In this document: positions 2,411 to 46,612 of the stretch, piece after piece
Layout: each line of letters starts with the position of its first letter
Position numbering within the stretch: the first letter of the stretch is position 1
Source: an uncultured Poribacteria bacterium
GTDB taxonomy: Bacteria; Poribacteria; WGA-4E; WGA-3G
Assembly: GCA_951828515.1 (NCBI GenBank)
Contig: OX639992.1
Span: 3,884,217-3,948,216 of the forward strand
DNA length: 64,000 nucleotides
Reading direction: 5' to 3'
The notes under the pieces: model-generated
Told to the model about the DNA's origin: nothing
Seen by the model: the letters and a program-made list of their open reading frames with translations, nothing else
Databases searched by the model: none
Position numbers and translations under genes: made by a program

Positions 2411-2521
2411 CTATTTATAAGACACGACATCCCCCTCTTCCCGAAGTGAGATGTGGAACATCCCGCGCCGCTCGGTCGCCACATACAGTCTGTCGCGGTG
2501 AACGACAAGTGAGAGCACCTT
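2411..2521 (-). pseudogene. 3'-end remnant of an ECF-sigma/beta-propeller gene
   Basis: The minus strand encodes about 36 codons, ending in TAG at 2411-2413, that match the last residues of the intact gene at 17526-20483 almost word for word. Both share the motifs SLVVHRDRLY, ATERRGMFHISL and EGD/AGD before the stop. No matching body of the gene lies upstream, so this is a detached C-terminal fragment. It shows that at least one more copy of the sigma/propeller gene once lay here. Confidence 0.8.
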
Positions 2522-2672
2522 ATTTCTCAGGGTGCTTGATTATCCTTTTCACCCTGTATTTAATTCTCGGTTTTCATTCTCCATAGCGAAAAACCTCAAA
2601 AACCTTTCCACAGTTTCACGCAACTTCGCCAACTTTTAGAGACAAATTCAGCTTTTTTCATTTTTTTTAGAA

Positions 2673-2710
2673 ATTATGCACGTTTTCTGCCTGAAAGTTA
2701 AGTCTTTAAG
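2673..2710 (+). promoter_or_regulatory. Conserved ATTATGCACG...AGTCTTTAAG motif upstream of sigma gene
   Basis: One of about seven copies in this window of a roughly 38-bp motif: (G)ATTATGCACG, then a T-rich and an A-rich spacer, then AGTCTTTAA. This copy lies about 60 bp upstream of the sigma-factor start on the same strand. Constant spacing and orientation toward genes suggest a promoter or operator. Which sigma factor or regulator reads it is unknown. Confidence 0.5.
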
Positions 2711-2770
2711 TATAGCGATGTGGATTTTCCCTATTTATCACTATAGTACACATTGCGGAAAGGAGTTGAA

Positions 2771-3307
2771 TTGTCGGATGAGAGCCGAAGAGTTGATGAT
2801 GAAATCTCAGCACTGATCATCTTTCATGAACCCTTGCTGAGACACATCATTGGTTTGAGTGATGATCCTGTTGATAGAGAGGATGTTTATCAAGAGACAG
2901 TGGTTGCAATCCTCGAACATTTGCGTAAGGGAAAGTCGGTGGAACACGCGAAAGCGTGGATGGCACGGATTGCAAAAAACAAGTGTGCTGATTTTCATCG
3001 ACGTGAGAAAAGAGACACAAACCGAGACCCTGATTTATCGCCTATTATCAATCATACTGCGTTCGGTGGCGGTGTGAGTATCGCCGATGACCAGCATCAA
3101 GCGGTTGTCGTCAAAGAGATTCGCACTGTAATTTCGGCGATGAAGTCTATTTATAGAGATGTCGGTGAGTTGCGTATCCAAGGACACACCGCCTGCGAGA
3201 TTTCAGAGCAATTAGAGATTCCCGAAGGGACGGTGCAATCAAGGCTTCGCAAGTTTCGGCAGTTGATACGGGAGTATTTGGAGATGGATACACGCCTGCC
3301 GAAATAG
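2771..3307 (+). CDS. ECF-type RNA polymerase sigma factor
   Basis: A 178-residue sigma-70-family protein. The frame is open from a TTG at 2753. The TTG at 2771 is preferred because AAAGGAG sits five bases before it. Sigma region 2 is around residues 15-80, with the DxEDVYQETVVAIL and AKAWMARIAKNKCADFHRR helices that bind core polymerase and the -10 element. Region 4 is around residues 135-170, with an EISEQLEIPEGTVQSRLRK helix-turn-helix. The family directs RNA polymerase to a specific regulon. No anti-sigma gene is adjacent. It lies before the first peptide locus and may control it, but that is only proximity. A copy of the conserved 38-bp motif lies upstream. Confidence 0.87.
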   Translation: MSDESRRVDDEISALIIFHEPLLRHIIGLSDDPVDREDVYQETVVAILEHLRKGKSVEHAKAWMARIAKNKCADFHRREKRDTNRDPDLSPIINHTAFGGGVSIADDQHQAVVVKEIRTVISAMKSIYRDVGELRIQGHTACEISEQLEIPEGTVQSRLRKFRQLIREYLEMDTRLPK

Positions 3308-4646: not shown

Positions 4647-4684
4647 ACCTCTCAGAAGACCTCTATCAGCGGTTGTACTCGGGC

Positions 4685-4897
4685 TCATTTGTAGGAGGTA
4701 CCCTGTCCGAACTCGTTTCGTATAGATGGCTTCGATACGACATCAAGAACCATAGGCGCGTCAAAGATTTCAAGCGTCGGTTCAAATCTCGTATCGAAAT
4801 TATACAGTTTCCGAAAGCGGACAAGATATTGATGACGCACACCTAACAGCAACAGAAACAAAATTATCGCCTCGTCGAAGGATGCCCACGGCACCAA
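4685..4897 (-). pseudogene. Remnant of sigma/propeller gene (membrane-linker segment)
   Basis: The minus-strand frame matches only the transmembrane and linker part of the intact sigma/propeller protein (roughly residues 220-290). It shares FLLLLGV, QYLVRF, a PxxEI-DAP motif and KP-xx-RN. Sigma and propeller parts are missing, so it is a decayed fragment. It lies next to a LamG gene, and the fragment at 13618 also lies next to a LamG gene, which points to a duplicated LamG plus sigma/propeller pair. Confidence 0.75.
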
Positions 4898-5100
4898 CGG
4901 TTTACCAACCGGTCGGACTGTCGGGTTAATGTCGGATGAGTATGGGAAAAGAGTGTTATGAGGGAACTCTATCTCATCATTATTTTACCGAAAACCCTCT
5001 AATTTTAATAAGCGGTGTTGTTTCCTACGTTTGAGATGTTTTGTGCATCTATGGTTAAAACATTACCGTTTCTACTACAAAGTGAAGGAGATAAAATCTC
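4898..5100 (+). promoter_or_regulatory. Leader region and ribosome-binding site of peptide gene
   Basis: About 200 AT-rich bases without a gene precede the Cys-rich peptide. GAAGGAGAT at 5083-5091 is a strong Shine-Dalgarno site before the ATG at 5101, which fits high translation of a small precursor. No promoter could be assigned with confidence. Confidence 0.5.
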
Positions 5101-13568: not shown

Positions 13569-13779
13569 TTTTTCTCTCCTTTTGATCCGAAATATAGCGT
13601 TTATAAGACGTTCTCTGCATCTCTACCATGGGGACATCCTCCAGGGATCCTGTTAAAGATTTGTTGTCTTGTAACCAAGTATTGCAGAGTCGATTCGTGA
13701 TGACATAAAGCCAGCCAGAAAACTGACTGAGGTCCTTTAACTTTGGGAGGTGCTTGTATACTCGAACAAAGGTGTCCTA

Positions 13780-15019
13780 GTAGTGAGTCAAGTTTCTATT
13801 GACAGTTATTATGAAAAGTGGTATGCTGCGTGTCCCTGTCATAAATCCTTTCAGTTGGAGTCTGTGATGCCAGCGAAACGATACCCTGTTCTTCTTAACT
13901 CAGAGCAACGAGCGTCTCTGATAACTCTGACGACTTCAGGGACGGCCTCTGCGAGAAAACTCACGCACGCCCGGATCTTGTTGAAAGCAGACGCGGGCGA
14001 GTTTGGACCCGCTTTCCTCGATAAAGCGATAAAAGCAGCTCTTGATGTCTCCCTGTCTACTATTCAGCGCGTGCGTAAAACCTTTGTGCTTGAAGGTCTC
14101 GAAGCCGCCCTGCTCCCGAGAAGACCCTCTCAGGGGTCAAGACCAAAAAAGTTTGATGGCGAAAAAGAGGCACATCTCATCGCCTTGGTCTGTTCGGATC
14201 CACCAGAGGGGCATGCCTGCTGGACGCTGCGGCTGTTAGCTGAGAAAATGGTGGAGCTTGAGCATTTTTCAAGTATTTCTCATGAAAGCATCCGACAGGT
14301 GCTAAAAAAAACGAACTGCGTCCGTGGCGCAAGCAGCAGTGGTGTATCCCAGCAGAAGCTTCGGAAGCGTTCGTGACAGCGATGGAAGGCATCTTAGATC
14401 TCTATGAGCGCCCTGAAGACCCGAGGTATCCTGTGGTGTGTGTTGATGAGACGAGTAAACAACACCTTCAGGAAATGCGTCCACCGCTGCCGCTGATGCC
14501 GGGGAAACCTTACCGATATGATCCTGAATATAAACGCAATGGCGTCAGCAATCTGTTTATGATTTTCGCACCCTTTTTCGGGTTTCGACATGTCGAAGTC
14601 ACTGACCAACGCACGAGTCTGGATTTCGCACGTATCTGTCGAGATATCGTCGATGTGCATTTTCCAGACGCAGAAAAGATTCTGCTGGTTTGCGATAATC
14701 TTAATACACACAAGCCAGGTTCGTTGTATAAAGCGTTTGATACCCAAGAGGCTCAGCGGATCGCTGAAAAACTTGAGTTTCACTATACCCCGAAGCACGG
14801 GAGTTGGTTGAACATCGCCGAAATAGAGTTTTCCGTCCTCAGTCGACAGTGTCTTTGTAGGCGTATCCCGGATCAAGAGACCCTCAAACGCGAGGTTCAG
14901 GCATGGAAACCAAACCAGAGAAATCAGCAACGTGCCACGGTCAAGTGGCGGTTTACGACCGACGATGCACGGATCAAACTCAACAAACTATATCCTTCAA
15001 CAGAAGGTTGACACACTAC
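13780..15019 (+). mobile_element. IS630-family insertion sequence
   Basis: A 1240-bp element bounded by TA on both sides (13778-13779 and 15020-15021), the target duplication typical of IS630/Tc1. Its ends, GTAGTGAGTCAAG at left and the complement GTAGTGTGTCAAC at right, form imperfect inverted repeats. Comparison with the intact gene (GTGTCCTGCGTAATCTC) shows exactly where it entered. Confidence 0.9.
13867..15011 (+). CDS. IS630-family transposase, -1 frameshift
   Basis: Two overlapping frames together make about 381 residues. Frame one starts at ATG 13867 (MPAKRYPVLL; an open extension to 13750 lies outside the element). It carries the helix-turn-helix DNA-binding part. A run of eight A at 14304-14311 allows a -1 slip, joining VLKK to NELRPWRKQQW and giving the continuous DDE transposase. 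The catalytic residues are in VCVDETSKQ (first Asp), LLVCDNLNTHK (second Asp) and LNIAEIEFS (Glu). Programmed slippage on A-runs is known in IS630, so the gene is probably functional rather than broken. Without slippage the first frame ends at 14376. Confidence 0.88.
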
Positions 15020-15239
15020 TAGGTAATCTCTTCGGTATGATGAAAATTACCAATCCTCCGCCAAGCCAAAGCGTGGGCACCTTTTTGATGCTTGCGGACT
15101 AATGCAGTGAATGCTTTGCTGTTGCCTGACAAATCTTGTGGATGAGTTGAACATCACCTTCTACTATTAGAATTCTCCATCATGAACAGATTTGGGAAAA
15201 CGTCCATTGTGGGTGCCGCAAATTCCCTAGAGTTGGAAG

Positions 15240-15475
15240 TACAGTGACCTTTCGCTTTCCTCGCAAATAGTATACCAAACACAATAGCAAACCTAAACCC
15301 TTAATTGATTGTTTCTATTAAAGACTGCATTTTTTCACCAAAAACGTGCATAATCTGAAAAAATTGAAAAAATAGTTCAAGTTCAGATTTTTCAAATTCC
15401 CATTGAAATTTCGTTTCTCGCCTACCTCCACTGCTTTCAAGTTTTCCACTGATTTTCGTCATTTTTCAATGAGGA
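15240..15475 (-). repeat. Duplicated promoter region plus phosphohexomutase 3' remnant
   Basis: The minus strand matches 20600-20830: the promoter region with GGTATACT, the 38-bp motif (15318-15355), and then about 100 bp equal to the 3' end of the phosphohexomutase gene (KLES/KLKA...GxKRxTKF). It is a displaced copy fused to a glycosyltransferase remnant at about 15470. Confidence 0.75.
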
Positions 15476-15705
15476 GGTCCTCGTCCGCTAATACCTCCGT
15501 CAAAGCCGTTTCAAGTTGATCATATCTATTTCTTCCCACGCTATATACGCAGGACCGTATCGTCCCTGTGTCCGGTTCATACCGACGACAGAAAATCGGC
15601 GGGAATGGAGTTCCTTCTGTCCTAAAATCCTCAGTTTTTCGCTGAAGACTCTCTTCAAACATTTTGACGAGCTCTCGCGCAGCGTTCTTACTGTCCGAGA
15701 TATCC
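15459..15705 (-). pseudogene. C-terminal remnant of RRE-like glycosyltransferase
   Basis: The frame encodes FCRRYEPDTGTIRS and YSVGRNRYDQLETALTEVLA, matching the C-terminal region of the glycosyltransferase at 31600-33300 (FCRRYNPGSGT, YRLGIHRYDCLQAALIEMLA). After LAD the sequence jumps into the 3' end of a phosphohexomutase (DLLIEK) and stops. The matching upstream half lies at 17022-17245, beyond the CotH gene. Confidence 0.8.
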
Positions 15706-17028
15706 GATATGTGCATCTATCCACTCCAGTCGGTCCTGCAACCATGTTTTCAACTGGTGTACCTCTTGTTCATAGGTGGACGGATTGGATTGAGGATTGC
15801 CGAGAACGCTGACCCCAAGCACTGGCCATCTCTCAAAGTTCCTTGATTGTGCCTTGGATAGATATTCAGCAGTTCGATCAATCTCCTCCAGGAGCTTTGA
15901 AGTCGTAAGTTCATCTTTCCGAAGAGCTCGCCACCTCTTAACGAGTTTTCGTTTGAAGTTTTCGTCTGTTAGTAATCGATCCCACCAAAAGGGGACGGGG
16001 TTTGTATGAATCAACCACCCATCCGTTTCCCAACCGTTATTAAAATATGCATTGCCCATTGATAAGTTGAAATCCCAGATGGGTCCCATTTTCAGTTTGG
16101 TGTTTCTATCTTTGTACATATAGGTGCTGTTCCGGAATCCATCTATGTTTCTGAAAAGTTCATTGATGATGAAATGATCGATAAAAGTATCCGTATGAAT
16201 ATACTCGACATATTCACCGCGATCTGGGGCTTTTAACGACGATTCAAATGCGCTCATATAGTTCCGAATCCACGCTTTTTGGGCAGCGGATATTTGGTTT
16301 CCTTTCGGATATACATGAATCAACCGTGTGCGGTAATCCGTAAGAAAGTACCTGTCATTAAGGTCAATTTTGTCGATTTTCAGGATATAGCCCCCCGTGA
16401 TTTCCGACGGTTTCTCCTGTGTCGACTTCAGCGATTGAATATTGACCCGGTTTTTCCCGCGCTTAATCTTTTCCATCAGTAAGTAAACACCGACATAGTG
16501 CTTTTGTTTAATCTTTGTATCCCCTGAATCATTAAGAAATACTTCGACAAACTTTGTTCTGCTTGTGTACCTACCCATCCGATTACTGAACTCGTACGCC
16601 AGGTAATTCCGCATAAGGGTTTTATCCGAATAGGGACCATTCAAAATCCAGTCGGATTCCGCTGGAAGTTGCAGCAGCGATACATCTTTATCATTGCCAC
16701 TATCGTCCTGAATTTCAAAACCGTACTGCTTTTTCGGAAACGCCTGTGAAGTTTTCCCTCGGACCTCTATACCGATTTTCCCATCGAAATGGACGTGTGG
16801 GCTATTCAAGGCGTTTCTGCCGCCAGATTCATCGTAAATAATCTTCATCCGCGCAGAAATTTTGGGTTCGTCAGAAATCCATTTCCCAAAGGTATCAATA
16901 AGAACAAGCGGTAAAATCGATGTCTTCTCCTTGATGGCAAAGCAACTTGTAGGAATGGATAACAGAACACCGCTCAGAAGCAAAAGTGTGATTTTTTTTA
17001 CAGAGGCATTTATAGTAGATTTTAGCAT
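15688..17028 (-). CDS. CotH-family (spore-coat H kinase-like) secreted protein
   Basis: A 446-residue protein with an N-terminal signal or anchor (lysines, LLLLSGVLLS, then a Cys at about residue 29 that could be a lipobox). The body matches the CotH family, an atypical protein-kinase fold. It has an early VRGKTSQAFPKKQYGFE, DWILNGPYSDKTLMRNYLAYE, GGYILKIDK, and the metal-binding GPIWDFNLSMGN. Family members phosphorylate Ser on coat proteins in Bacillus; others are cell-surface proteins of unknown role. It sits inside a split glycosyltransferase gene: its start overlaps the upstream remnant by a few bases and its end overlaps the downstream remnant. It may modify a secreted protein, possibly one of the nearby peptides (speculative). 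The ribosome-binding site is weak. Confidence 0.82.
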   Translation of the reverse strand: MLKSTINASVKKITLLLLSGVLLSIPTSCFAIKEKTSILPLVLIDTFGKWISDEPKISARMKIIYDESGGRNALNSPHVHFDGKIGIEVRGKTSQAFPKKQYGFEIQDDSGNDKDVSLLQLPAESDWILNGPYSDKTLMRNYLAYEFSNRMGRYTSRTKFVEVFLNDSGDTKIKQKHYVGVYLLMEKIKRGKNRVNIQSLKSTQEKPSEITGGYILKIDKIDLNDRYFLTDYRTRLIHVYPKGNQISAAQKAWIRNYMSAFESSLKAPDRGEYVEYIHTDTFIDHFIINELFRNIDGFRNSTYMYKDRNTKLKMGPIWDFNLSMGNAYFNNGWETDGWLIHTNPVPFWWDRLLTDENFKRKLVKRWRALRKDELTTSKLLEEIDRTAEYLSKAQSRNFERWPVLGVSVLGNPQSNPSTYEQEVHQLKTWLQDRLEWIDAHIGYLGQ

Positions 17029-17249: not shown

Positions 17250-17480
17250 TGGTCGCTACTGACATCCAAACACAATAACGAACCGAAACCCTTAATTGTT
17301 GATTGTTTCTCTTAAAGACTGCATTTTTCGACAAAAAACGTGCATAATCAAAAAATAGTTCAAATTCACATTTTTCAAATTCCCGCCGAAATTTCGTTTC
17401 TCTCCTACCGCCACTGCTTTCAAGTTTTTCAATGATTTTCGTCATTTTTCAATGAGGTGGATTTCGTGCATAATCTAAAA
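17250..17480 (-). repeat. Displaced phosphohexomutase 3' end and promoter motif
   Basis: A third copy of the sequence found at 20600-20830: the EKLES-GG-RRETKF coding remnant (about 17370-17450) and the 38-bp motif (17312-17350). The promoter-like GTTATTGTGTTTGG breaks off at about 17260 and joins the glycosyltransferase remnant. A partial second motif (GATTATGCACGAAATCC) is at 17463-17480. Confidence 0.7.
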
Positions 17481-17525: not shown

Positions 17526-20483
17526 CTATCTACGAGACACGGCATCCCCCGCTTCCGCAAGTGAGATATGGAACATCCCGCGCCGCTCGGTCGCCGCATA
17601 CAGCCTGTCTCGGTGAACGACAAGCGAGAGAACTTTACCGGGAACGCCCGGCGAGACCTGTTTCCATTCGCCATGCGTATCTAAGTGGTAAATCCCTGTA
17701 TCCCCCGCACCATAAAGCGTAGCACCCTCCACAGCGAATCTGTCTATACGAACTGCATCGGTGATCACGCGCCAGTGTGAACCTGTCTGTGAAGCTAAGA
17801 CCCCTGTGTCTGTCGCGACGTAAACCGTTGACCCCGAAAAGATGATCTCCGTGAAAGCGGTAAACGAGAACGGAAGGGACGACGTGATGTCCTTCCAACT
17901 GTTCCCGTCATCCAGCGACTGAAACAACTTGCCATCCCGCTTCCCGACGTAGATGGTGTCCCCTGAAACCGCTAACTTAAACCCTTTATCCAATGTTCCA
18001 TCAGGTGGTGTACCCGTGTCTACCAATCCCGTGTCTGTCCACGCTGTATCGCCGGGGTGCCTTATGAAAAGTTTCCGTTTATATTCGGCATAAAACGTAT
18101 CGCCACTGACTGCAAACGCACCAACTTTCACATGTTCTCTATGACGCAATGTGCCTACCAAGTTATCCTCGCCTCCATGTCCTTTCTCTTCACTATGTGT
18201 TGACACCTTAATGGATGGAGCATCCACTTCAAATATGGGCACCTCTTGAACCGGGACGATCCTATTACCATCTGCTGACAAACGGAAAACGCGCAAATTG
18301 TCTTTTTCAGATGAAATTACATAAAGGGTGTTCCGGGCAACCGTTAACCTTGAATGAGAAAAAATATTGATGTGAGGCTGTCTCTTCTCCATAGGACTGA
18401 GTGCAACATCACTAACGTCAATCCGAACGGTTTTCCACGACTCGCCGCCGTCTGTTGATTGGACAAGGGCATCACTGGTATGTGCGTAGAGTCTGTTATG
18501 GAGCACAATCAAATTCAGGATTCCGGTTCCTACAATTCCATCCATGAACAGATGCCATGATTCACCAGCATCAGTCGTCCGATAAACACCGAATTTCCCG
18601 GCTTTATAAAATGTGTTCTCATTCCCTGCCACAAATGGAAAACCGCTGAGTACAAACGAATCCCCGTCAAATCCGAGGTCTATCCACGTCTGTCCACCAT
18701 TTCTTGATAGAAAGCGAGTTGCGGTTTGTGCCAAGATCGTCTTGCCAACGACCAATAAACTTATCCCAGATGGTGCTATTACAGGACGCAATCCACCTAT
18801 CGGCGTTATTTCAGTCCATGACGCTCCCAAGTCACTTGAGTGAAAAGCCCTGCCCAAACCTGAATTGTCGTCATACATCTGATGCATGACTTCCGTTGGT
18901 TCTGATCCAATCTGTTTTAAGTCCCGAAAATCAGGTCCTGTTCCAACATAGAGACTCCCTTCGGCGGCGACTAAGGAATGGACGGAGCCTGGCACATCTT
19001 CAAGTAATCGTTGCCACGTGCCTGAATCCAGTCGATAGAGACCTTTGTCCGTGCCAGCAAACACCCTGTCTCCGACCACAACCATCGCAGAAATTGTCCC
19101 ACCCATCAATCCATCGTCAAGGAGAACCCATTGACCACCTATATCTGTAGAGCGGAACACCCCTTTATCTCGGAGGGCAAGATACATCGTAGAGTGCTCG
19201 CGGGAACTGCTGTTTTGTGCTTCATTGACGATTACTAACTCAATGGCATGTCCCCCTGGACGGGAGCAGAGTGCTTCCCATGTCTCACCATCGTCGGTTG
19301 AGGCAAATACCGTATCTTTGAAGACAATATAGAGCATCCCCTCATGTGCTGCCATGGGCATCCAAGAACCTTCAATCGGTAAGCTGCTGTTTACGAGTGT
19401 CCATGGCGGTGTGTCTGGACTTAGTCTGTAGATACCTGTTGGTGAAAGCGTGTAAATCGTCCCTGCATCAGTCGCGAATATATCAAAAACAGGACCGCCT
19501 TGTGGTCCCGCTGTCTGCGCCCACTGTGATGTGGAGAGTTGAATTGCCCCAACCTCTGCATGAGAGGCTACATCCGATTCAGAGATCTGCACACCAGTTC
19601 CTCTGCTGTTACGGGTTGTGACAGCACGCCCTGCCTGATTTCGGACAGCCGGTTTTGCATCAATGTTGAGAATGACAGGTGCGTCAATAATTTCAACCAT
19701 CGGTTCGGACTGTGCCTCGAAACTATACGGTTTCTGAAATCGGACGAGGTATTGGTTGCTCACACCCAACAGGAACATTACCACTAAAATTGCCGCCGCA
19801 CCAAAACCTATCCACGGTAGGAACGGCTTCCCCGCTGAAGGAGACACGGGTTTCATATCCGCAACTTTCCGCACGATGTTCTGTGTGAGACTCTCAGGTA
19901 ATTGGACACTCCCGAGCATCTCTTGAACTAAGAGTTCCTCGTCCTGTTTTAAACGCTCTCGCGCCCGCTGTAGCCGACTCGTAATCGTATTCACCGATAC
20001 ACCCAAAAACTTGCCAATCTCTTTTGCCGTCATTTCGCCGAGATAGTAGAGCGTCATGACGGTGCGTTCGCTCTCCGGTAGTTTTGCCAGAAGCTTCTTG
20101 ACGAGTTCCTGGTGATGTGAGTGGGACTCTTCTTCGTGTTGTGTCGATACATAGTGTTCGTAAAATGCTTTTTCCACTTCTGCCATGGGGACCTCCTCCA
20201 GCGATTCCATCAAAGATTTGTTCTCTCGGAGCCAGGTATTACAGAGCCGAGCTGTAGTGACATAAAGCCACCCAGAAAACTGATTGGGATCCTTTAACTT
20301 TGAGAGGTGTTTGTAGACGCGAAGGAAAGTGTCCTGCGTAATCTCTTCAGCGATGTGAAAATCCCCAACTTTTCGCCAAGCCAGTGCATGAACACTCTTC
20401 TGATGCTTTCGGACTAATGCCGTGAATGCTTCATCATCGCCCGCCAAAATCTTATCAATGAGTTGAACATCATCTTCTACCAT
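17526..20483 (-). CDS. ECF sigma factor fused to membrane helix and extracellular beta-propeller
   Basis: A 985-residue fusion. Residues 1-185 are a full sigma factor: region 2 around 20-90 (EEITQDTFLRVYKHLSKL, SGWLYVTTARLCNTWLR) and region 4 around 130-185 (LPESERTVMTLYYLGEMTAKEIGKFLGVS and a TSRLQRARERL recognition helix). One membrane helix follows at about 222-242. The remaining ~700 residues are BNR/sortilin-like propeller repeats with the S-T-D-x-G-x-x-W signature many times (STDDGETWEAL, STDGGESWKTV, TTDAGESWHLF). The layout suggests an outside sensor directly tied to an inside transcription factor. Fusions of this kind occur in Poribacteria and Planctomycetes, but their signal is unknown. 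Remnants of related genes lie at 2411, 4685 and 13618. The upstream region has the 38-bp motif and a TATACT box. Confidence 0.85.
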   Translation of the reverse strand: MVEDDVQLIDKILAGDDEAFTALVRKHQKSVHALAWRKVGDFHIAEEITQDTFLRVYKHLSKLKDPNQFSGWLYVTTARLCNTWLRENKSLMESLEEVPMAEVEKAFYEHYVSTQHEEESHSHHQELVKKLLAKLPESERTVMTLYYLGEMTAKEIGKFLGVSVNTITSRLQRARERLKQDEELLVQEMLGSVQLPESLTQNIVRKVADMKPVSPSAGKPFLPWIGFGAAAILVVMFLLGVSNQYLVRFQKPYSFEAQSEPMVEIIDAPVILNIDAKPAVRNQAGRAVTTRNSRGTGVQISESDVASHAEVGAIQLSTSQWAQTAGPQGGPVFDIFATDAGTIYTLSPTGIYRLSPDTPPWTLVNSSLPIEGSWMPMAAHEGMLYIVFKDTVFASTDDGETWEALCSRPGGHAIELVIVNEAQNSSSREHSTMYLALRDKGVFRSTDIGGQWVLLDDGLMGGTISAMVVVGDRVFAGTDKGLYRLDSGTWQRLLEDVPGSVHSLVAAEGSLYVGTGPDFRDLKQIGSEPTEVMHQMYDDNSGLGRAFHSSDLGASWTEITPIGGLRPVIAPSGISLLVVGKTILAQTATRFLSRNGGQTWIDLGFDGDSFVLSGFPFVAGNENTFYKAGKFGVYRTTDAGESWHLFMDGIVGTGILNLIVLHNRLYAHTSDALVQSTDGGESWKTVRIDVSDVALSPMEKRQPHINIFSHSRLTVARNTLYVISSEKDNLRVFRLSADGNRIVPVQEVPIFEVDAPSIKVSTHSEEKGHGGEDNLVGTLRHREHVKVGAFAVSGDTFYAEYKRKLFIRHPGDTAWTDTGLVDTGTPPDGTLDKGFKLAVSGDTIYVGKRDGKLFQSLDDGNSWKDITSSLPFSFTAFTEIIFSGSTVYVATDTGVLASQTGSHWRVITDAVRIDRFAVEGATLYGAGDTGIYHLDTHGEWKQVSPGVPGKVLSLVVHRDRLYAATERRGMFHISLAEAGDAVSRR

Positions 20484-20657
20484 GAGAATTCTCCATCATG
20501 AATGAACAGATCGGGGCATGCTAACATCTTCTTGAATTTTGCTTGCAACGGGTTTTCACGTGTCGGCATGAGACGGAGTTTTGCACGTCTCGTAAAGAGT
20601 ATACCAGACACAATTGTAAACCGAAACCCGTAAATTTAAACTGTTTGATTGTTTCTA

Positions 20658-20695
20658 TTAAAGACTCTCTATTTCGGCAAAAAACGTGCATAATC
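20658..20695 (-). promoter_or_regulatory. Conserved 38-bp motif upstream of sigma/propeller gene
   Basis: GATTATGCACG...GAGAGTCTTTAA on the minus strand. About 60 bp further downstream, toward the gene, are TTTACA and TATACT-like boxes (about 20600-20625), which are also preserved before the broken copy at 15240-15290. This conservation beside two paralogues supports a regulatory role. Confidence 0.55.
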
Positions 20696-20721
20696 TAAAA
20701 AAAATAGTTCAAATTCATATA

Positions 20722-31599: not shown

Positions 31600-33300
31600 C
31601 TATTCCGACAAGATTGACTTCCCAACGTTGGTTGGGAAAGCCATTTCCAAGACGAATTCATTTGCTACAGAAGTGAAGCCCTTCCCTTGGAAATGCTTGA
31701 AAACTGCCTCGATTTCAGCAGGTGTGTGCCGTTCCGCTAACATTTCTATCAAAGCGGCTTGAAGGCAGTCATATCTATGAATCCCCAGGCGATACACACT
31801 GGATTCGGTGGTTCCAGATCCTGGATTATACCGACGGCAGAAGACCGACGGAGACAAATTTCTTTCTCTCCTGAAAGCATTCACGCTTTGCTGATGCCCC
31901 TCTTCAAGGCACTGAACGATTTCTTGTGCTACTTTTTCCCAAGTGAATTTTTGAGCCAAACGCTTTGCAGCGTCTTCGCATTCGATACGTGTATGAGAGG
32001 GTTTTAACCACTGATTTATCGTGTTTGACAACTCGGACATCGGGACACGGAAATTACCGAAATCATTCCCTTCCGACTCCACAACGGCACCTGCACCTGC
32101 TACTTCCGGAGGCATCCCATATTTCGTCATCGCAACACACGGCGCACCATACGCCATCGCCTCTAAAACAATCGACAGCGGGGTACCCGGCATCGCAGGG
32201 AAACACACAAGATCCAACGCTTGGAAGAATATCGGCAACACCGATCGCGTTTCTTCGTCATCGGCACTGAAAATGACGACATTCTCTGGTGGATGCCGAT
32301 ACTGTTGCTCTAACAGTGTATCATACACAAAGATCGCCAGATGTGGGTTGGCGCGCGCGAATTCAGAAATCCATACGGCACCCCGACTCGGCTCAAATCC
32401 AGAGATCAGCCCGACAACCGGTTGCTTCACAAACATCGGTTTGTCAAAGAGTGCAGCGGTATGCTGTTTTGCCAACGCCTTATCACCGATCGGCGCAACA
32501 ACGTCTATCCCATCCGGTATCACGCGCACGTTATCTGCTGGCATCCCTAATTCAGCGATCCATTCCTTCATCCACGAGGCTTTGACCACCAGTGTATCTT
32601 TTGGACTTTGGAACGCACAGAGCGTCAAGAGCGTTTTCAGCAGAACGTGTTGTAGCCGCTGGGTCGCATCTATGCAGTGAACAATCGGCACATCGGGAAC
32701 TCGATAGTATAACAGATCGTCCGTCAAGAACTGTGAGAGCAGCAGGATACCGTCATAGCCATCCATCGCATACCACGGCGACGTCAGGGCATTCCCTGCC
32801 GCTACGTCTATGTTCCGAACCCGAACCGCATCGAGATCTTGAAAGTCCTCCTTCTTTTCCTCAGGAAACGACAACGTTTCCAACTCGGCGAACGCCGCAA
32901 GGTGCGTCAAAAACTGATAACGGTTGAGATTCGTGAGGTAGTCCAACGACGACTTCTCTCCCGTAAAATGGAACGGGACCAATACTTTCGGTTTCTGATC
33001 GCGCGGCTGCCCCTGTGCAACCGTTGGTTCCACTGCCGCAACGACTCGGTGCAGAAGGGTTCCTTGTCTTCCGAGTTGTTCCAAGCGTTCGATCCCATCA
33101 AAGATAGCAGTCAATTTATAGTCTTTTCTCAGGTTCTCGACGATCTGATACCGCGTCTGCGACGCATAACATGACAGAATTTCCCATTCCACGTCATTTA
33201 TCTGAACGATGTCGCCCGTTTCGAGATCTGCGGCATATTTGCGATCGTCCTGCTCAAATGTATGATGCTGTTTTAAGCGGTAACGCCTGTGAGATACCAT
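31600..33300 (-). CDS. GT4-like protein with RRE-like N-terminus, first EX7E Glu missing
   Basis: About 566 residues from the ATG at 33298-33300, which has GAGGAG upstream; eight earlier codons overlap the previous gene. Residues about 12-85 are a PqqD/RRE-like domain (KYAADLETGDIVQINDVEWEIL to LEQLGRQGTLL). The GT-B body has VVGLISGFEPSRGAVW and FPAMPGTPLSIVLEAMAYG. The second Glu of EX7E is present and the first is Gly, as in the protein at 9312. The C-terminal helical piece has FCRRYNPGSGT and AERHTPAEIEAVFKHF. It is a likely non-catalytic or altered partner of the enzyme at 33311. Copies of its 3' end lie before the other peptides, and a broken relative is at 15459/17022. Confidence 0.82.
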   Translation of the reverse strand: MVSHRRYRLKQHHTFEQDDRKYAADLETGDIVQINDVEWEILSCYASQTRYQIVENLRKDYKLTAIFDGIERLEQLGRQGTLLHRVVAAVEPTVAQGQPRDQKPKVLVPFHFTGEKSSLDYLTNLNRYQFLTHLAAFAELETLSFPEEKKEDFQDLDAVRVRNIDVAAGNALTSPWYAMDGYDGILLLSQFLTDDLLYYRVPDVPIVHCIDATQRLQHVLLKTLLTLCAFQSPKDTLVVKASWMKEWIAELGMPADNVRVIPDGIDVVAPIGDKALAKQHTAALFDKPMFVKQPVVGLISGFEPSRGAVWISEFARANPHLAIFVYDTLLEQQYRHPPENVVIFSADDEETRSVLPIFFQALDLVCFPAMPGTPLSIVLEAMAYGAPCVAMTKYGMPPEVAGAGAVVESEGNDFGNFRVPMSELSNTINQWLKPSHTRIECEDAAKRLAQKFTWEKVAQEIVQCLEEGHQQSVNAFRRERNLSPSVFCRRYNPGSGTTESSVYRLGIHRYDCLQAALIEMLAERHTPAEIEAVFKHFQGKGFTSVANEFVLEMAFPTNVGKSILSE

Positions 33301-33310
33301 TTTGTGCTCC

Positions 33311-35044
33311 TCATGCAGTTCCATCGACTAAGCCGCGAACCCTTTTGAGAATCGCTCTTGCTTCTGTTTCGTCGGGCACCCATTCGGCAAGGATTGCTTC
33401 CGCTTCTCTGGGGGTATGCTCTTTCAAAATGCTCAGCACCAGCCCATTTTCAACACGCAGCGGATACACCGCGTCCCGTATGAGACACCGCTCGTAATGC
33501 TCGTTCATACTCAGCACAAACGATTTATACGTCGGTTCTGGGTGTTCTTCTTCTGACGGTTGTGCCGGGGTGAACACGTTTAAGAGTCTATTCGGATTGA
33601 TCAGTTTCTTTTTCCGGTGAAGTTCCTCAAATAATTGGACGATGCGGCGCGCCGTCTTATCCCACGTAAACAATACCGCACGTTCCCTTGCCTTCTTTGA
33701 AAGCGTCTGCCACAATTCAGTGTTATTCAAGAGTCCGTTAATCTTATTGGAGAAATCTATCGGACACGGATAACTCACCAACGTTGCGATGTCTTGGTCG
33801 AAACTCTCGGCATCCGCAACCAATCCAGCGGCCCCGACAACCGCCGGAACCCCATCGAAATTCGGGACGACCGGTGGGACACCGCACGCCATCGCCTCAA
33901 GCACGGTTAACCCGAACGTCTCTTCACCCGACATCGAAAGAAAACAGTAAACATCGAAGGCGTTATAGATAAGCGGGAGTTTCTCGCGCGGATGGAATCC
34001 TACATAGACAAGGTTGTCCGGGAGTTTCCGGGACGCATACCGTCCCATGTTCGGACCCGCTATCAAGAAAAGCAGATGCGGGTTCAGTGCCGCCAACTTC
34101 AAGTAGACGGATGCCCCTTTCTCCGACTGCACTCGGGAGAGATACCCGACTGTCGACGCACTCTCAATCCGATCGTCTCCGACCATTTTTGAAATTTCAC
34201 GCTTCGCTGCCGCTTTATCCATCGGTCGGAACAACGCCGAATCCACACCGTTTGGCAATGTATTGAAAAAACTCGGATCCCAGACGTAGTCAGCATAGAA
34301 CTCACGGACGTAATCTGAGGGGGCAGTGAATCCATCACACTCCCGCATCGCCGCATAATGCCGTAAAATGGAATTCATCGCTTGCCCGCCGTGTCCGCGC
34401 GGGGCATGACACTGCACCAAAATCGGAGGGAACTCCCGGTATCGGTAAAGCGGGAGTAACCACCGTTCCTGCTCTTGATGCAAGGTCAGGATACCGTAAT
34501 ACGTTTCACCGATTTTTGACCGCAGCCGTATCAGGTCCTCGATACCGATATCGATTTCATATACGCCATCTGTGATCTTCCGGTTCTGAGATCCCGCGAA
34601 ATGTAGATCCGCATACTTGGGGAGATGCTGAATCATGTAAGAAAGTGCCATGTTGGTGCCAGCCGATAGCGTTTCAATATCGAAAAGCGAATCCACAGCG
34701 ATGCTCGGGAGTACCACCAGCAGCTTTCGCCACTTGCTTTCCGTCTCGAAACTCCGCTTCAAGTTTTCGCCGCGATTGAATAGCAAGCCTTCCTTCTCAA
34801 GTTCCGCGAATGTTTCAAACGCTTCGGAGATGTCGTTCGCGTCATAAGAGGCGCGCAGTGTTCTGACAATTCCAGTTTGCGTTTGCGTTTCCGCGAGTTT
34901 TAGGATGTCTCTCATCACAGCAGAGAGTTCGACGACGCGCGCTTTCTCAAGGTCAGCGGCATACGCCACGCCCTGCTCTTCAAAGAGGTAAAGTGGGTGC
35001 AATATTCTTGGAAAATCGAGCAATTTTTGTGTGTTCCTTTCCAT
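33311..35044 (-). CDS. GT4 glycosyltransferase with PqqD/RRE-like N-terminus, EX7E intact
   Basis: A 577-residue protein and the first gene of locus 2. Residues about 12-90 form the PqqD/RRE-like domain (VAYAADLEKARVVELSAVMRDIL to LEKEGLLF). The GT4 body has a GTNMALSYM loop, VGYLSRVQSEKGAS and SGEETFGLTVLEAMACG, with EX7E complete. The C-terminal helical piece has KEHTPREAEAILAE. The closest relative here is the enzyme at 7599. It should glycosylate the peptide family, with specificity set by its RRE-like domain reading the leader (inference). The 38-bp motif lies about 30 bp before the start codon. It is directly followed by, and nearly overlaps, the altered partner gene. Confidence 0.83.
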   Translation of the reverse strand: MERNTQKLLDFPRILHPLYLFEEQGVAYAADLEKARVVELSAVMRDILKLAETQTQTGIVRTLRASYDANDISEAFETFAELEKEGLLFNRGENLKRSFETESKWRKLLVVLPSIAVDSLFDIETLSAGTNMALSYMIQHLPKYADLHFAGSQNRKITDGVYEIDIGIEDLIRLRSKIGETYYGILTLHQEQERWLLPLYRYREFPPILVQCHAPRGHGGQAMNSILRHYAAMRECDGFTAPSDYVREFYADYVWDPSFFNTLPNGVDSALFRPMDKAAAKREISKMVGDDRIESASTVGYLSRVQSEKGASVYLKLAALNPHLLFLIAGPNMGRYASRKLPDNLVYVGFHPREKLPLIYNAFDVYCFLSMSGEETFGLTVLEAMACGVPPVVPNFDGVPAVVGAAGLVADAESFDQDIATLVSYPCPIDFSNKINGLLNNTELWQTLSKKARERAVLFTWDKTARRIVQLFEELHRKKKLINPNRLLNVFTPAQPSEEEHPEPTYKSFVLSMNEHYERCLIRDAVYPLRVENGLVLSILKEHTPREAEAILAEWVPDETEARAILKRVRGLVDGTA

Positions 35045-35071: not shown

Positions 35072-35109
35072 CTTAAAGACTGCAGTTTTGGGTGGATTTC
35101 GTGCATAAA
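35072..35109 (-). promoter_or_regulatory. Conserved motif at the head of peptide locus 2
   Basis: TTTATGCACGAAATCC...TGCAGTCTTTAAG on the minus strand, about 30 bp before the ATG of the first glycosyltransferase. It is the same motif as upstream of the sigma genes. This closeness supports a promoter role and suggests shared control of the sigma/propeller gene and locus 2. Confidence 0.55.
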
Positions 35110-35569
35110 ATGAAAAAAAATGAAAATTTATTTTTTTATTAATTTATCGGGGCGGAGAATTGCAGCCTATATACGGAGAGAACCCACGTGGTATCAGGGC
35201 TCAGAGGCACTTATGTGCCAAAATTCGTTCAAGGTATGAAAAATAATTTTTTTATTTAAAACGCGAATTTGACATTTTTTTCGGATTATGCACATTTTTC
35301 GGTTAAAAAGAGAGTTTTTAAGAGCAGGATCGGATCCTATCTCGCGAATACGGTAAGATCGATTCAATTTCCGAGTGGCACAGAAGCGGAGAAAACAGAT
35401 ACTATAAGTTAAATATAATTTCACGTACGTTTTTTCACGGAGAAAGGGGATAGTGTCTTGATGACCCTAAAAGCAAGTTGACAAAATATACGGTTTTGGA
35501 GTAAAATTGAGGGCAACAACAGTTTCTGTCACGCACGCGAAACATCCAATAGCGATAAGGAGTTTGACA
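35110..35569. other. Divergent intergenic region
   Basis: No gene recognised between the minus-strand glycosyltransferase and the plus-strand PhyH gene. It is AT-rich, with a plus-strand copy of the 38-bp motif at 35283-35322 (GATTATGCACATTTTT...GAGTTTTTAAG), and AAGGAG before the PhyH start. Confidence 0.5.
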
Positions 35570-36352
35570 ATGCTAACGCAAGAACAGGTCGAATTTTACC
35601 ATGAGAACGGATATCTCAAGGTAGACCAACTCTTCAAACCAACGGAAACGAAAGAACTGGCATCTGAAATGGTGCGGATTATCAACAATTGGGGGCAGGA
35701 GACAATCGGTTGGCCCGGGCCTTGGCGCACACGCTACCTCAAAGATGAGGACCAGCAAACGACGAAAGCCGTGTTTATGCACAACCCCCATTTCTACTCC
35801 GCCGCATGGGGGCGGGTGATTTTCCACGAACGGCTGACAGGCGCGGTGCAATCACTCATCGGTGATACCATTCAATGGCACCATACTGTTTTACACGCAA
35901 AGCCGCCGGAAAAAGGGACACCCTTCCCGATGCACCAGGACTACCCGTTCTATCCACACGATGGACTCGATTTCGTTGATTGCCTCGTTCATCTTGACGA
36001 TGCTCCCTTTGAGAGTGGTGCCCTACGAGTCGTCCCCGGCAGCCATAAGGAGGGACCGCGGGAACACATCACGGGTGAAGGGACAGCACCGCATCTACCA
36101 ACCGATAAATTCCACCCGGATTTCATTGACTCGATTCCGATCCCAGCGCAGGCAGGGGATGTCATTTTCTTCAGTTATTGCCTTATCCACTGGTCTGAAG
36201 TCAATCGGACAGAGCAGTGGCGGAAAGCCGTTCGGTTCGGATACCACAAGCCGGACATGCGTCCCGTCGGACGCGCCCCAGAAGAACCTTACAACAACAT
36301 TATGGCGGGCGGGTTCAAATTGAATCCGACCTCGGAAGAAATAATGGCTTAA
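35570..36352 (+). CDS. Phytanoyl-CoA dioxygenase (PhyH) family protein
   Basis: A 260-residue protein; the ATG at 35570 follows AAGGAG, and an upstream extension to 35507 lacks similarity. It has the N-terminal LTQEQVEFYHENGYLKV of PhyH proteins, then MHQDYPF (metal-binding His-x-Asp, about residues 121-123), SGALRVVPGSH, and a distal IHWSEVN His near residue 206 with a following Arg for 2-oxoglutarate. All iron ligands are visible. These Fe(II)/2-oxoglutarate enzymes hydroxylate small molecules or lipids. They are greatly expanded in Poribacteria, and their substrates are mostly unknown. It is on the plus strand, away from locus 2. Confidence 0.9.
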   Translation: MLTQEQVEFYHENGYLKVDQLFKPTETKELASEMVRIINNWGQETIGWPGPWRTRYLKDEDQQTTKAVFMHNPHFYSAAWGRVIFHERLTGAVQSLIGDTIQWHHTVLHAKPPEKGTPFPMHQDYPFYPHDGLDFVDCLVHLDDAPFESGALRVVPGSHKEGPREHITGEGTAPHLPTDKFHPDFIDSIPIPAQAGDVIFFSYCLIHWSEVNRTEQWRKAVRFGYHKPDMRPVGRAPEEPYNNIMAGGFKLNPTSEEIMA

Positions 36353-36545: not shown

Positions 36546-38192
36546 ATGAAGTCTCGTATTTTCTCAAAACACCTTTTATTTCTTTTCACCTTAAGCACGT
36601 GCTTAGTCTTCGTAATGAAGACTGATGCCCAAAGTCCATCACTCGCTGAGCAGGTATTTCAAAAACACCGAACAATCCTGCTGAGTGAAGATGTTCAAGC
36701 AGTCCTACCAGCAGTTCTCGTTGAACTCAAGAAACCGGAGAATCAAGAGATCCTAACACCTGTTCTTATTGAGGCTGTTCTGGAGAATCCTGACCTCCTC
36801 AAAAGAATCGTTCCAGAGATCAGCGATGAATTCATAACGTTATTAAAACAAGAGGACTCCGATATCCGAACCTTACTCAGCGATCCGGACGTTCAAACCT
36901 TACTCCAGATGCCAGAAGCAATTGATGAACTCACACATCTCCTTGAAGTCGCAAAGACCCCTCTCGCAACACGGATATTTGAAAGGTACGAACTCCTTTT
37001 CCAGCGCGAAGACATTCGGGAACTACTCCCCGGTGTCCTCGCAAAACTCAAGCAACCCGACACACAAGCACTCTTACGACCCTCGATGATAAAATTGGTG
37101 GCTGAAAATCCAGATCTGCTTAAAGTAATTGTTCCAGAAATTGATGATAGATTCATAAGACTCCTCAAGGAAGATCCTGAAGTTAATACCTTTATTAACG
37201 ATCCGGATCTGCACGTTCTTCTTCAGAATCCTGCTGAGATTGATGAACTCGCTGTGTTGCTGGACCTCCAAACTGTAGCAATCGTCGGCATTGTGCCTGT
37301 GTCAATCGAGTCACCTAATGTTGGGGAACAGTTTGCTATCGCTGTTGTTACCACTAACGCGCAAAATGTACGGGGTTATCGGTTATCAGTCCAATTTGAT
37401 CCAGAGGCACTTCGCTATGTTTCGTCGCAGCAGGGGACCTATCTTTCCGGTGATGTTTTTGTTGCTCCCGCAACTATTAAGGCAGATCGGGTGTCCTTCG
37501 TCGTGACTGCGCCTATGGAAGCGGAGAGCACACAGGGCATTCTCCTGACGATAACGTTTGAAGTGGTTGCCACAAAAGCGTCAATGTTGTCACTAAGTGA
37601 CGTGATGCTTGTGAATGGTGAAGGGATAGGGCTGCCTGTGAAGACCGAAGATAGTGAGGTAGTTGAACCGATACCTACAGAAATTGAAGAGACTGAGGTA
37701 GTTGAACCGATACCTACAGAAACTGAAGAGACTGGGGTAGCCGAACCGACACCTGCGGAAACTGTGGAAACTGAAGAGACTGAGACAGTTGAACCGACAC
37801 CCGCAGAAACTGTGGAAACTGAAGAGACTGAGGTAGTTGAACCGACACCTACAGAAATTGAAGAGACTGAGGTAGCCGAACCGACACCTGCGGAAACTGT
37901 GGAAACTGAAGAGACTGAGACAGTTGAACCGACACCTACGGATACCGAAAATGGTGAGGTAGTTGAACCGACGCCTGCAGAAACTGAAGAGACTGAGACA
38001 GTTGAACGCTTGACCCCGGTATGGGATGTCAACGAAGATGGTTTCGTTAATATTTTAGATTTGGTGTTGGTATCATCGAATTTCGGAGAGGAAGGATCCG
38101 TACCCGCTGATGTTAACGGCGATAACGTAGTAAATATCTTAGACTTAACACTGGTTGCGAGCCATCTCGGTGAGTACTACGAGCAACCCTGA
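36546..38192 (+). CDS. Secreted cohesin-like / Glu-Thr linker / dockerin protein
   Basis: A 548-residue protein with a signal peptide ending near DAQ (residue 29). Residues about 32-235 hold two copies of an ~95-residue unit (VxxxHRTILLSEDVQAVLP in the first and the corresponding ERYELLFQREDIRELLP in the second, each with LLxDPDVxxLLQ). Residues about 240-360 resemble a cohesin domain (VSIESPNVGEQFAIAVV, VRGYRLSVQFDPEALRYVS, LTITFEVV). A roughly 120-residue Glu/Thr/Pro repeat linker follows (VEPTPAETVETEETE units). The end is a dockerin with two Ca-binding loops, DVNEDGFVNILDLVL and DVNGDNVVNILDLTL. Cohesin and dockerin together suggest self-assembly or a cell-surface scaffold. A strong terminator follows. 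Confidence 0.86.
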   Translation: MKSRIFSKHLLFLFTLSTCLVFVMKTDAQSPSLAEQVFQKHRTILLSEDVQAVLPAVLVELKKPENQEILTPVLIEAVLENPDLLKRIVPEISDEFITLLKQEDSDIRTLLSDPDVQTLLQMPEAIDELTHLLEVAKTPLATRIFERYELLFQREDIRELLPGVLAKLKQPDTQALLRPSMIKLVAENPDLLKVIVPEIDDRFIRLLKEDPEVNTFINDPDLHVLLQNPAEIDELAVLLDLQTVAIVGIVPVSIESPNVGEQFAIAVVTTNAQNVRGYRLSVQFDPEALRYVSSQQGTYLSGDVFVAPATIKADRVSFVVTAPMEAESTQGILLTITFEVVATKASMLSLSDVMLVNGEGIGLPVKTEDSEVVEPIPTEIEETEVVEPIPTETEETGVAEPTPAETVETEETETVEPTPAETVETEETEVVEPTPTEIEETEVAEPTPAETVETEETETVEPTPTDTENGEVVEPTPAETEETETVERLTPVWDVNEDGFVNILDLVLVSSNFGEEGSVPADVNGDNVVNILDLTLVASHLGEYYEQP

Positions 38193-44689: not shown

Positions 44690-45061
44690 AAGGTGGGTTC
44701 GGAAGTGCATACACACCCACCGCCCCTTTATAATCTCACCGGTCTTGGCGAGTCTCACGAGTTCATGGATCTCTGGGCGGCGTGCCGACGATCCAGATAA
44801 CATCTGCGGCTTCAATAATGGTGTCAATTCCTGTCATTTTTCCTCTAAGCTGTGTTTACCATTTTTTTTAGATTATGCAAGATTTTCACGAAAAAGAGGT
44901 ATCTTTAAAATGTAGATACGTGGTAGTCTAAATCTAACCATCCAGTCATACCTGTTCGGTTAACACGTTATTGTCCTGCAAATCATTCTTTTTCCAACGC
45001 GGAATGTTTTCCTTGCTTGACTAATCTTGTTTGAGAAAACTTTCGGGAAGGGAGTTGTGGC
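44690..45061. other. Intergenic region with possible gene remnant
   Basis: On the minus strand from ATG 44836-44838 a frame reads TGIDTIIEAADVIWIVGTPP and soon hits a stop; a second frame continues IHELVRLAKTGEIIKGR. This looks like a frameshifted relic of a gene I do not recognise, roughly 44715-44838. The 38-bp motif lies at 44871-44910 on the plus strand, about 150 bp before the radical SAM gene. Confidence 0.4.
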
Positions 45062-46612
45062 ATGCGAAAACTCAAAATTGGTGTTATAGATCTTGTTGCT
45101 AAAGGGCCGACGCGAAATCTGTGGGCACGGACGATGCACGCGAATCTGGCAAGCATCATGCCTCAAACTATCGCCGTATGGTGCGAAGAAGAGGGGCATG
45201 ATGTCACCTTCGTCTGTTATACGGGTCTTGAAAATCCCATTGAGGAATTCCCCGAAACGCTGGACCTCGTTGTGATAGGGACGTTCTCGCAGGGAGCACA
45301 ACTGGCATACGCCTTGAGCAATCTCTTTCGATCCAGAGGGGCAGTCACTGTACTTGGGGGACCTCATGCCCGGTGCTACCCTCAAGATGCGCAGAAGTAT
45401 TTCGATTACGTTCTCGGTTTCACGGGCAAAGATGTCATCAGAGACCTTTTGCACGATTGTTCTCCCCATCGCCCGATCGGCGTTCACCTCTCGGCAAATG
45501 GTCAACCGATGACACTCCCCAGTGTGCAAGAGCGTTGGAAATTTATAGAACTCAGCCATCGTAAAGCCCCCTGGATTAAAGTGGTTCCGATGCTCGGTAG
45601 CATGGGGTGTCCATACACGTGTAGTTTTTGTATCGATTCGGTTGTTCCGTATCAACCTCTGGAATTTGACGTTATGAAGGCAGATTTGCGTTTCCTCTTA
45701 GGAAAGTTTAAACGCCCAATTGTCGGTTGGCACGATCCCAACTTCGGTATCCGATTCGATGATTACCTGTCTGCGATCGAAGACGCAGTGCCCCCTGATA
45801 GCGTAGACTTCATCGCCGAGAGCAGTTTGTCAATCCTCTCGGAACCGCACATGAAACGGCTGAAGCGAAACGGGTTTAAGATGATGTTGCCCGGGATTGA
45901 GTCGTGGCAAGACTTCGGGAACAAATCGAAAACAGGGAAACATAGCGGTATCGACAAAGTCCAACAGATCTCAGAGCAGGTGAACATGATTCTGAGATAC
46001 GTGCCGTACGTCCAAACCAACTTCGTGTTCGGACTCGATATTGACGAAGGGACAGAACCCTTTGGACTCACGAAACACTTCCTTGATATAACCCCGGGTG
46101 CCTATCCTGCTTATTTGTTATTGACAGCATACGGGCAGGCAGCACCCTTGAACCTTGAATATCAACGAGAGGGACGTGTCCTCCCTATTCCGTTTTACTT
46201 TCTTGACAGCAAGCGTGGGATGAATATGAAGCCGAAGAACTATACGTGGGAGACCTTTTACGATAATGTCATTGATCTGATTAAACATAATATTTCATGG
46301 CAATCCCTCTTTAACGGTTACAAGGCGATTCCCCATTCCACCGCCCGGTGGCTGAACGTTATCCGGGTTTTGCCATGGTTTGAGCAGCTCAAGTACTACC
46401 GTGAAATACGGAGACGGTTGGATGTAGATCCACAGTTCCGACCTTTTCTTGAGGGGGAAACCACAGAAATTCCACAGTTCTATGTGGAGCGGATACGGAA
46501 GAGCTTGGGGACGTTATGGGAGTGGCTTCCGGAGGGAGCATTGTATCATGACCCGAACGCCTATCTCAAGTCAGAAGAGAATTCGTTAACGCAGTTGGAG
46601 AAGTCGCCTTGA
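45062..46612 (+). CDS. B12-binding-domain radical SAM protein
   Basis: A 516-residue protein with GGGAGTTG before the ATG. The N-terminal ~150 residues resemble the cobalamin-binding fold of this family (LDLVVIGTFSQGAQLAYALS, VLGGPHARCYPQD). The radical SAM domain follows with MLGSMGCPYTCSFCIDS, giving the CX3CX2C iron-sulfur motif, and then MMLPGIESWQDFGNKS typical of HemN/Elp3-like barrels. Members use a 5'-deoxyadenosyl radical, often with methylcobalamin, for methyl transfer or ring reactions on lipids or secondary metabolites. The C-terminal ~150 residues are not recognised. No partner enzyme lies adjacent. Confidence 0.87.
   Translation: MRKLKIGVIDLVAKGPTRNLWARTMHANLASIMPQTIAVWCEEEGHDVTFVCYTGLENPIEEFPETLDLVVIGTFSQGAQLAYALSNLFRSRGAVTVLGGPHARCYPQDAQKYFDYVLGFTGKDVIRDLLHDCSPHRPIGVHLSANGQPMTLPSVQERWKFIELSHRKAPWIKVVPMLGSMGCPYTCSFCIDSVVPYQPLEFDVMKADLRFLLGKFKRPIVGWHDPNFGIRFDDYLSAIEDAVPPDSVDFIAESSLSILSEPHMKRLKRNGFKMMLPGIESWQDFGNKSKTGKHSGIDKVQQISEQVNMILRYVPYVQTNFVFGLDIDEGTEPFGLTKHFLDITPGAYPAYLLLTAYGQAAPLNLEYQREGRVLPIPFYFLDSKRGMNMKPKNYTWETFYDNVIDLIKHNISWQSLFNGYKAIPHSTARWLNVIRVLPWFEQLKYYREIRRRLDVDPQFRPFLEGETTEIPQFYVERIRKSLGTLWEWLPEGALYHDPNAYLKSEENSLTQLEKSP

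Follow-up and report, generated by a model that had tools for sequence, protein, structure and literature searches.

A predicted membrane-held ECF sigma factor with a beta-propeller ectodomain, one of many related copies in Poribacteria

An ECF sigma factor joined to a membrane helix and a propeller

How can a sigma factor act in transcription when the same polypeptide continues through a membrane helix into a large domain that appears to lie outside the cell? The question is raised by a gene in a 64,000-nucleotide stretch of DNA from an uncultured Poribacteria bacterium (contig OX639992.1), which we call the window and whose numbering we use throughout. The gene and its parts are as follows.

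17526..20483, minus strand: sigma-TM-propeller gene, an intact open reading frame of 985 aa with an ATG start
20217..20417, minus strand: sigma region 2 (aa 23-89; Pfam PF04542; solved relatives SigW, AlgU and RpoE)
19938..20105, minus strand: sigma region 4 (aa 127-182; Pfam PF08281/PF04545; dN/dS 0.10)
19854..19895, minus strand: helix after sigma region 4 (aa 197-210), a candidate built-in inhibitor (conserved; AF2 pLDDT about 88-92)
19767..19823, minus strand: single transmembrane helix (aa 221-239; hydropathy 2.37)
19626..19754, minus strand: juxtamembrane ectodomain motif (aa 244-286, QYLVRFQKPYSFEAQSEPMVEIIDAPVIL...KPAVRNQAGR), conserved across ectodomain types
17559..19508, minus strand: GH74-like beta-propeller ectodomain (aa 326-975; Foldseek)

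Residues 1-182 form a complete ECF sigma factor according to Pfam and PDB matches, with Sigma70_r2 at 23-89 (2e-13) and Sigma70_r4_2 at 127-178 (7e-15). The protein scores 99 bits against TIGR02937, for which the cut-off is 42.9, and the presence of sigma2 and sigma4 with the absence of regions 1 and 3 places it among the ECF (group IV) sigma70 factors. Sortilin/BNR-type repeats span about 390-975 (Pfam), and the sole strong hydrophobic segment of the protein lies at 221-239 (Kyte-Doolittle 2.37). These Pfam domains and the one hydrophobic segment uphold the initial annotation, which had described an ECF sigma factor and a large propeller linked by one membrane helix. In a structure model built from 61 relatives (mean pLDDT 72), the sigma and propeller parts are folded and residues 213-318 are unfolded. 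The closest relative, found in another Poribacteria assembly (L061), is 80% identical, with an overall dN/dS of 0.26; because this relative is under purifying selection and profile matches occur in 68 of 85 genomes (below), the open reading frame is not a chance one.

On sequence features, the propeller appears to lie outside the cell. Cysteine makes up 0.21% of the ectodomains of copies with the helix, compared with 1.08% of the C-terminal parts of copies without it, a depletion that fits an outside location. The charge flanking the helix is mostly +1 to +2 on both sides, and the positive-inside signal is ambiguous. An external propeller of about 700 residues had been proposed at first; its location agrees with the cysteine depletion, but its size comes to about 650 residues.

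The best PDB fold matches of the ectodomain were GH74 xyloglucanases (Foldseek, E about 2e-21 with TMt 0.59; TMt 0.57-0.60 across GH74 matches), which are the nearest solved fold at about 15% identity, although here the propeller is attached to a membrane sigma factor. As far as the modelled fold can guide, GH74-like propellers perhaps bind polysaccharide or glycoprotein. Lower-ranked matches included BT4663, a heparin sensor, and BT4673, which are periplasmic sensors of Bacteroides hybrid two-component systems. By this fold match, these proteins resemble ours in combining a regulator and a periplasmic propeller sensor in one piece, but their signal passes via a histidine kinase and a DNA-binding regulator, not a sigma factor.

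Many copies with exchanged C-terminal domains

The genome, a single contig of 5.85 Mb, contains 38 family sigma copies longer than 200 aa, 30 with the helix and eight without. In all 30 copies the helix sits at the identical position, about 221-239. Their ectodomains are BNR propellers in 17, LRR in three and WD40 in two; three have no assignment, and Kelch, PD40, C-type lectin with CarboxypepD, redoxin and M16 peptidase occur in one copy each. The eight helix-less copies carry M61 peptidase, redoxin, a DnaN clamp and C-terminal parts without assignment. The clamp fusion (L046:4096-5808, minus strand) joins an ECF sigma factor to a complete DnaN sliding clamp with all three clamp domains, and it is one of three DnaN genes in this genome. 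On a tree of the sigma parts, the 17 C-terminal types need 18 changes, where the minimum possible is 16, and the BNR type alone requires at least three changes on well-supported branches.

A profile of the helix and juxtamembrane region gave 1,592 matches in 68 of 85 Poribacteria genomes, two genera reaching as many as 57 per genome and several others having one to three; this profile had no matches outside the order. In a scan of a genome collection, only Poribacteria were among the best 79 loci.

Family members have recurrent same-strand neighbours, namely other family copies, PD40 propellers, LamG proteins and ABC-2-like permeases, the last assigned by eye. Tandem ABC-2-like permease genes (at L024, L022, L038, L041 and others) lie beside family members at 28 of 120 loci, always on the same strand. 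For eight of the 11 non-BNR TM copies that had matches, a separate gene for a relative of the ectodomain lay on the same strand no more than 6 kb away, in a search that covered family loci only and favours near matches. These nearby relatives suggest that a fixed module acquires domains from secreted genes in its vicinity.

The window itself holds remnants of further copies.

2417..2545, minus strand: sigma-TM remnant, last propeller residues (matches aa 942-984; also repeat D13, 87%)
4679..4939, minus strand: sigma-TM remnant, TM and juxtamembrane region (matches aa 207-294)
13570..13779, minus strand: sigma-TM remnant, second half (matches aa 50-119)
13750..15011, plus strand: IS630-type transposase region, splitting the copy at 13.6 kb
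15016..15132, minus strand: sigma-TM remnant, first half (matches aa 13-51)

The remnants at 15016-15132 and 13570-13779 are the two halves of a single copy with the IS630 element between them. Three related fragments had been read as signs of copying and loss; all three exist, on the minus strand, a fourth can now be added, and the many paralogues, truncated copies and IS-split copies agree with that reading.

A constrained strip outside the membrane and a conserved helix inside

Between the membrane helix and the variable domain runs a strip, QYLxRFQKPYSFEAxSEPTIEIIDAPIVL...KPxVRNQxGR, that is kept whichever ectodomain follows. Its core is FQKPYSFEAxSEPTIEIIDAP, and the complete motif is present in 29 of the 30 TM copies of this genome. 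Measured against L061, dN/dS is 0.13 for sigma2, 0.10 for sigma4, 0.36 for the membrane helix, 0.09 for the strip and 0.30 for the propeller; constraint on the strip thus matches that on sigma region 4. We rejected the idea that the strip is a folded domain, as it is disordered in both structure models. It may instead be a docking or cleavage site for a partner common to all copies.

The initial annotation had advised looking for a protease site near the helix; neither such a site nor any cleavage or signal came to light. A gene for a site-2-type protease is present in this genome, which proves little, since such genes are ubiquitous and members of the site-2 protease family occur in 14 of 14 control genomes. 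A trypsin-TPR protein encoded beside one copy was considered as a site-1 protease and rejected, being absent among the recurrent neighbours.

On the other side of the membrane, the helix at 197-210 is confidently modelled in a second structure model, built on a 132-sequence alignment, and is conserved within the order, including in distant relatives. The modelled sigma fold is nearest to chains bound by anti-sigma factors (TMt 0.67 for CnrH-CnrY and 0.62 for SigW-RsiW), compared with about 0.3-0.44 for RNAP-bound chains; however, two other anti-sigma complexes, AlgU-MucA and sigmaE-RseA, score 0.45, no better than RNAP-bound chains. The compact model may possibly be the AF2 default for a free ECF sigma factor. 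The case for self-inhibition of the sigma factor by the 197-210 helix is suggestive only.

A putative ECF-type promoter precedes many family genes

Many family genes share a putative upstream ECF-type promoter with the consensus ATTATGCACCCTTTC-N10/11-gCGTCTTTAAT. A PWM site precedes 71 of 120 family genes and about 2% of controls, with a PWM that was refined from simple matches and trained on the genes it scores, shuffled and antisense controls being scored likewise. The repeated 38-bp motif, for which a promoter role had been suggested, behaves like a promoter of ECF type for the family. Within 400 bp of the gene, the promoter is missing in about 40% of the family, and some of these genes sit in longer operons. 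The simple pattern TGCAC-N18/20-GTC precedes 28 of 120 family genes and occurs in none of three controls. Pattern scanning for TGCAC-N18/20-GTCTTTA gave 30 occurrences genome-wide against four for the reversed pattern, and the PWM gave 45 sites over 604 kb against none in the reversed sequence. In this genome, a promoter lies within 3 kb upstream of 25 of 38 copies on the coding strand and of 0 of 38 on the other strand. The window has six PWM matches, against none when reversed. These matches, the gene that we regard as a candidate target and one variant site are as follows.

20657..20698, minus strand: ECF-type promoter of the sigma-TM gene, starting 215 bp before its ATG (PWM 36.9; kept in L061)
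17311..17352, minus strand: promoter of the same type before the CotH gene (PWM match)
15688..17028, minus strand: CotH-family gene, candidate target (Pfam CotH 1.8e-61)
15317..15358, minus strand: promoter of the same type before the IS-split sigma-TM copy (PWM 31.6)
2669..2710, plus strand: promoter of the same type before a small ECF-like gene (2753-3307; PWM 27.0; gene by Pfam)
35281..35322, plus strand: motif of the same type upstream of a PhyH gene (35507-36352; PWM 23.8; gene by Pfam)
44868..44909, plus strand: motif of the same type upstream of a B12-binding/radical-SAM-like gene (45062-46612; PWM 29.0; weak Pfam matches)
35074..35105, minus strand: GAAAT-variant promoter before a glycosyltransferase-like gene (33311-35044; motif match)

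Among the other candidate targets, the PD40, Kelch and LamG genes begin with signal-like sequences, and there are also a trypsin-TPR gene and an ABC transporter. The small ECF-like sigma gene (2753-3307, plus strand) has matches in 21 of 85 Poribacteria genomes; we rejected it as a general reader of the motif on account of its patchy occurrence.

The GAAAT variant (TGCACGAAAT...GTCTTTA) stands ahead of sigma54-activator and glycosyltransferase-like genes at L200, L207, L208 and window positions 35074-35105, and is possibly read by a different sigma factor. Under the variant promoter, window positions 31600-35044 encode two glycosyltransferase-like proteins that have their N-terminal part in common (AADLETGDIVQINDVEWEIL); similar pairs lie at 562.9 kb and 577.7 kb of the genome. 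Elsewhere in the window, a cohesin/dockerin gene (36546-38192) contains seven overlapping direct repeats with alternating 39/48 bp spacing (37641-38032).

The -10 element differs by sigma clade, being GTCTTTAAT in one and GTCACTATA in the second. Family relatives in other Poribacteria genera have an ECF-like upstream motif of their own with a different -35, and the strict TGCAC/GTCTTTA pattern, tried as a general one across Poribacteria, fails in those genera. Across genomes, the number of motifs follows the number of family copies (overall Spearman 0.74, against 0.38 for a control pattern; within two genera 0.49 and 0.55, against 0.20 and -0.13), a correlation that we count as weak support, since it is partly circular in that family genes carry the site themselves.

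Proposed mechanism and alternative readings

We favour, with a probability of roughly 60%, a membrane-held receptor and sigma factor in one protein, which would be triggered through the common strip, probably released by proteolysis, and would activate its own gene together with genes for surface proteins nearby. Inside the cell, the conserved helix after region 4 may fold back on the complete ECF sigma factor and hold sigma2 and sigma4 closed, acting as a putative built-in anti-sigma element. An outside ligand would be met by the sensor ectodomain, which differs among paralogues, and its signal relayed via the juxtamembrane strip to one activation step. By analogy with IutY and SCO4117 (PMC8999054, PMC5826349), this step would most likely be proteolysis in two stages, releasing the sigma domain. 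Once free, the sigma factor would transcribe its own gene and its neighbours, which mostly encode secreted or surface proteins, from promoters of the TGCAC-N18/20-GTCTTTA type; we infer that sigma-TM itself is their reader. More tentatively, and at somewhat less than even odds, the family could be a plug-in receptor of Poribacteria, in which a fixed module of self-inhibited sigma factor, helix and universal trigger is copied onto the domain of a neighbouring secreted gene, giving dozens of outside-in channels that use one activation machine.

The leading alternative concerns the release step. The sigma factor might never be released and might recruit RNA polymerase to the membrane to transcribe nearby loci, with the strip as a dimer or partner interface; ToxR and CadC, for example, act while membrane-bound. 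The stretch between sigma4 and the membrane helix is about 40 residues long, promoters often adjoin the sigma gene itself and the cleavage site was not found, all of which would suit such tethered action. We nevertheless consider it unlikely, given that known fused membrane ECF sigma factors are cleaved, as is IutY, or proposed to be, as is SCO4117 (PMC8999054, PMC5826349). A separate doubt concerns the reader of the promoter. If a different sigma factor read the motif, the sigma-TM genes would be mere targets, and the motif before the small ECF gene (2753-3307), in a genome with more than 12 ordinary ECF sigma factors, is compatible with this. That small ECF is absent from many motif-rich genomes (G072, G077 and G082), however, and the -10 element differs between sigma clades, though this difference follows one or few tree splits; we regard another reader as distinctly improbable.

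Two further readings dispense with the receptor. The hydrophobic segment might not be inserted, leaving the C-terminal part in the cytoplasm and the protein a soluble ECF sigma factor with a protein-binding extension, like ECF57 (WD40) or ECF42 (TPR). WD40 extensions are indeed known in ECF57 (PMC8999054), and eight paralogues are without the helix, some with plainly cytoplasmic partners such as the DnaN clamp. This reading is very unlikely: every TM copy has the helix at about 221-239, the ectodomains are depleted in cysteine and include GH74-like, C-type lectin and LRR types, and secreted-looking relatives are encoded next door. It is harder still to believe that the sigma part has lost its function and survives as an N-terminal leader that just anchors surface proteins: the copying of the module onto many unrelated domains would be expected of such a leader, but purifying selection on sigma2 (dN/dS 0.13) and sigma4 (0.10) and the conservation of the copies' own promoters speak against it.

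Relation to known systems and implications

The nearest known design is that of SCO4117/ECF52, in which an ECF sigma factor, a membrane helix and an outside carbohydrate-binding domain form one protein and for which positive autoregulation and proteolytic release have been proposed (PMC5826349, PMC8999054). The actinobacterial groups ECF52, ECF53 and ECF48 resemble the Poribacteria family in the fusion of an ECF sigma factor to a membrane helix, predicted in the latter, but they carry a zinc-finger anti-sigma domain that the Poribacteria protein is without (no Pfam match between aa 183 and 390 of the 985 aa). The Poribacteria family also differs from them in its conserved linker and juxtamembrane motif, its dozens of copies and its swapped ectodomains. 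IutY (ECF243), a one-piece membrane sigma factor released by Prc and RseP (PMC8999054), belongs to FecI/FecR-type iron cell-surface signalling, whereas the Poribacteria protein has no FecR match in Pfam. ECF57 resembles the family in joining an ECF sigma factor to a beta-propeller extension; its regulation is proposed to work through protein contact, and its sigma2 and sigma4 are joined by two cysteines (PMC8999054). In contrast, the 132 aligned Poribacteria sequences have one conserved cysteine, C81 in sigma2, and none conserved in sigma4. Judged by its domains, the Poribacteria family is thus predicted to work like fused membrane ECF sigma factors while being without the zinc finger that defines ECF52/53/48, IutY's FecR domain or ECF57's pair of cysteines.

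We found no paper in the openly licensed literature that pairs Poribacteria with ECF sigma factors. A 2014 paper on Poribacteria single-cell genomes described WD40 and LRR repeats with membrane helices and left sigma factors unmentioned.

The known membrane-fused ECF sigma factors are few and of fixed design, whereas the Poribacteria design is modular, with as many as 57 copies in one genome and a short motif whose constraint suggests a trigger common to all copies. If the proposed mechanism is true, a sponge symbiont would read many outside cues via a one-gene pathway. It would also provide predicted regulons for an uncultivated organism and a blueprint for membrane receptors that work directly as sigma factors.
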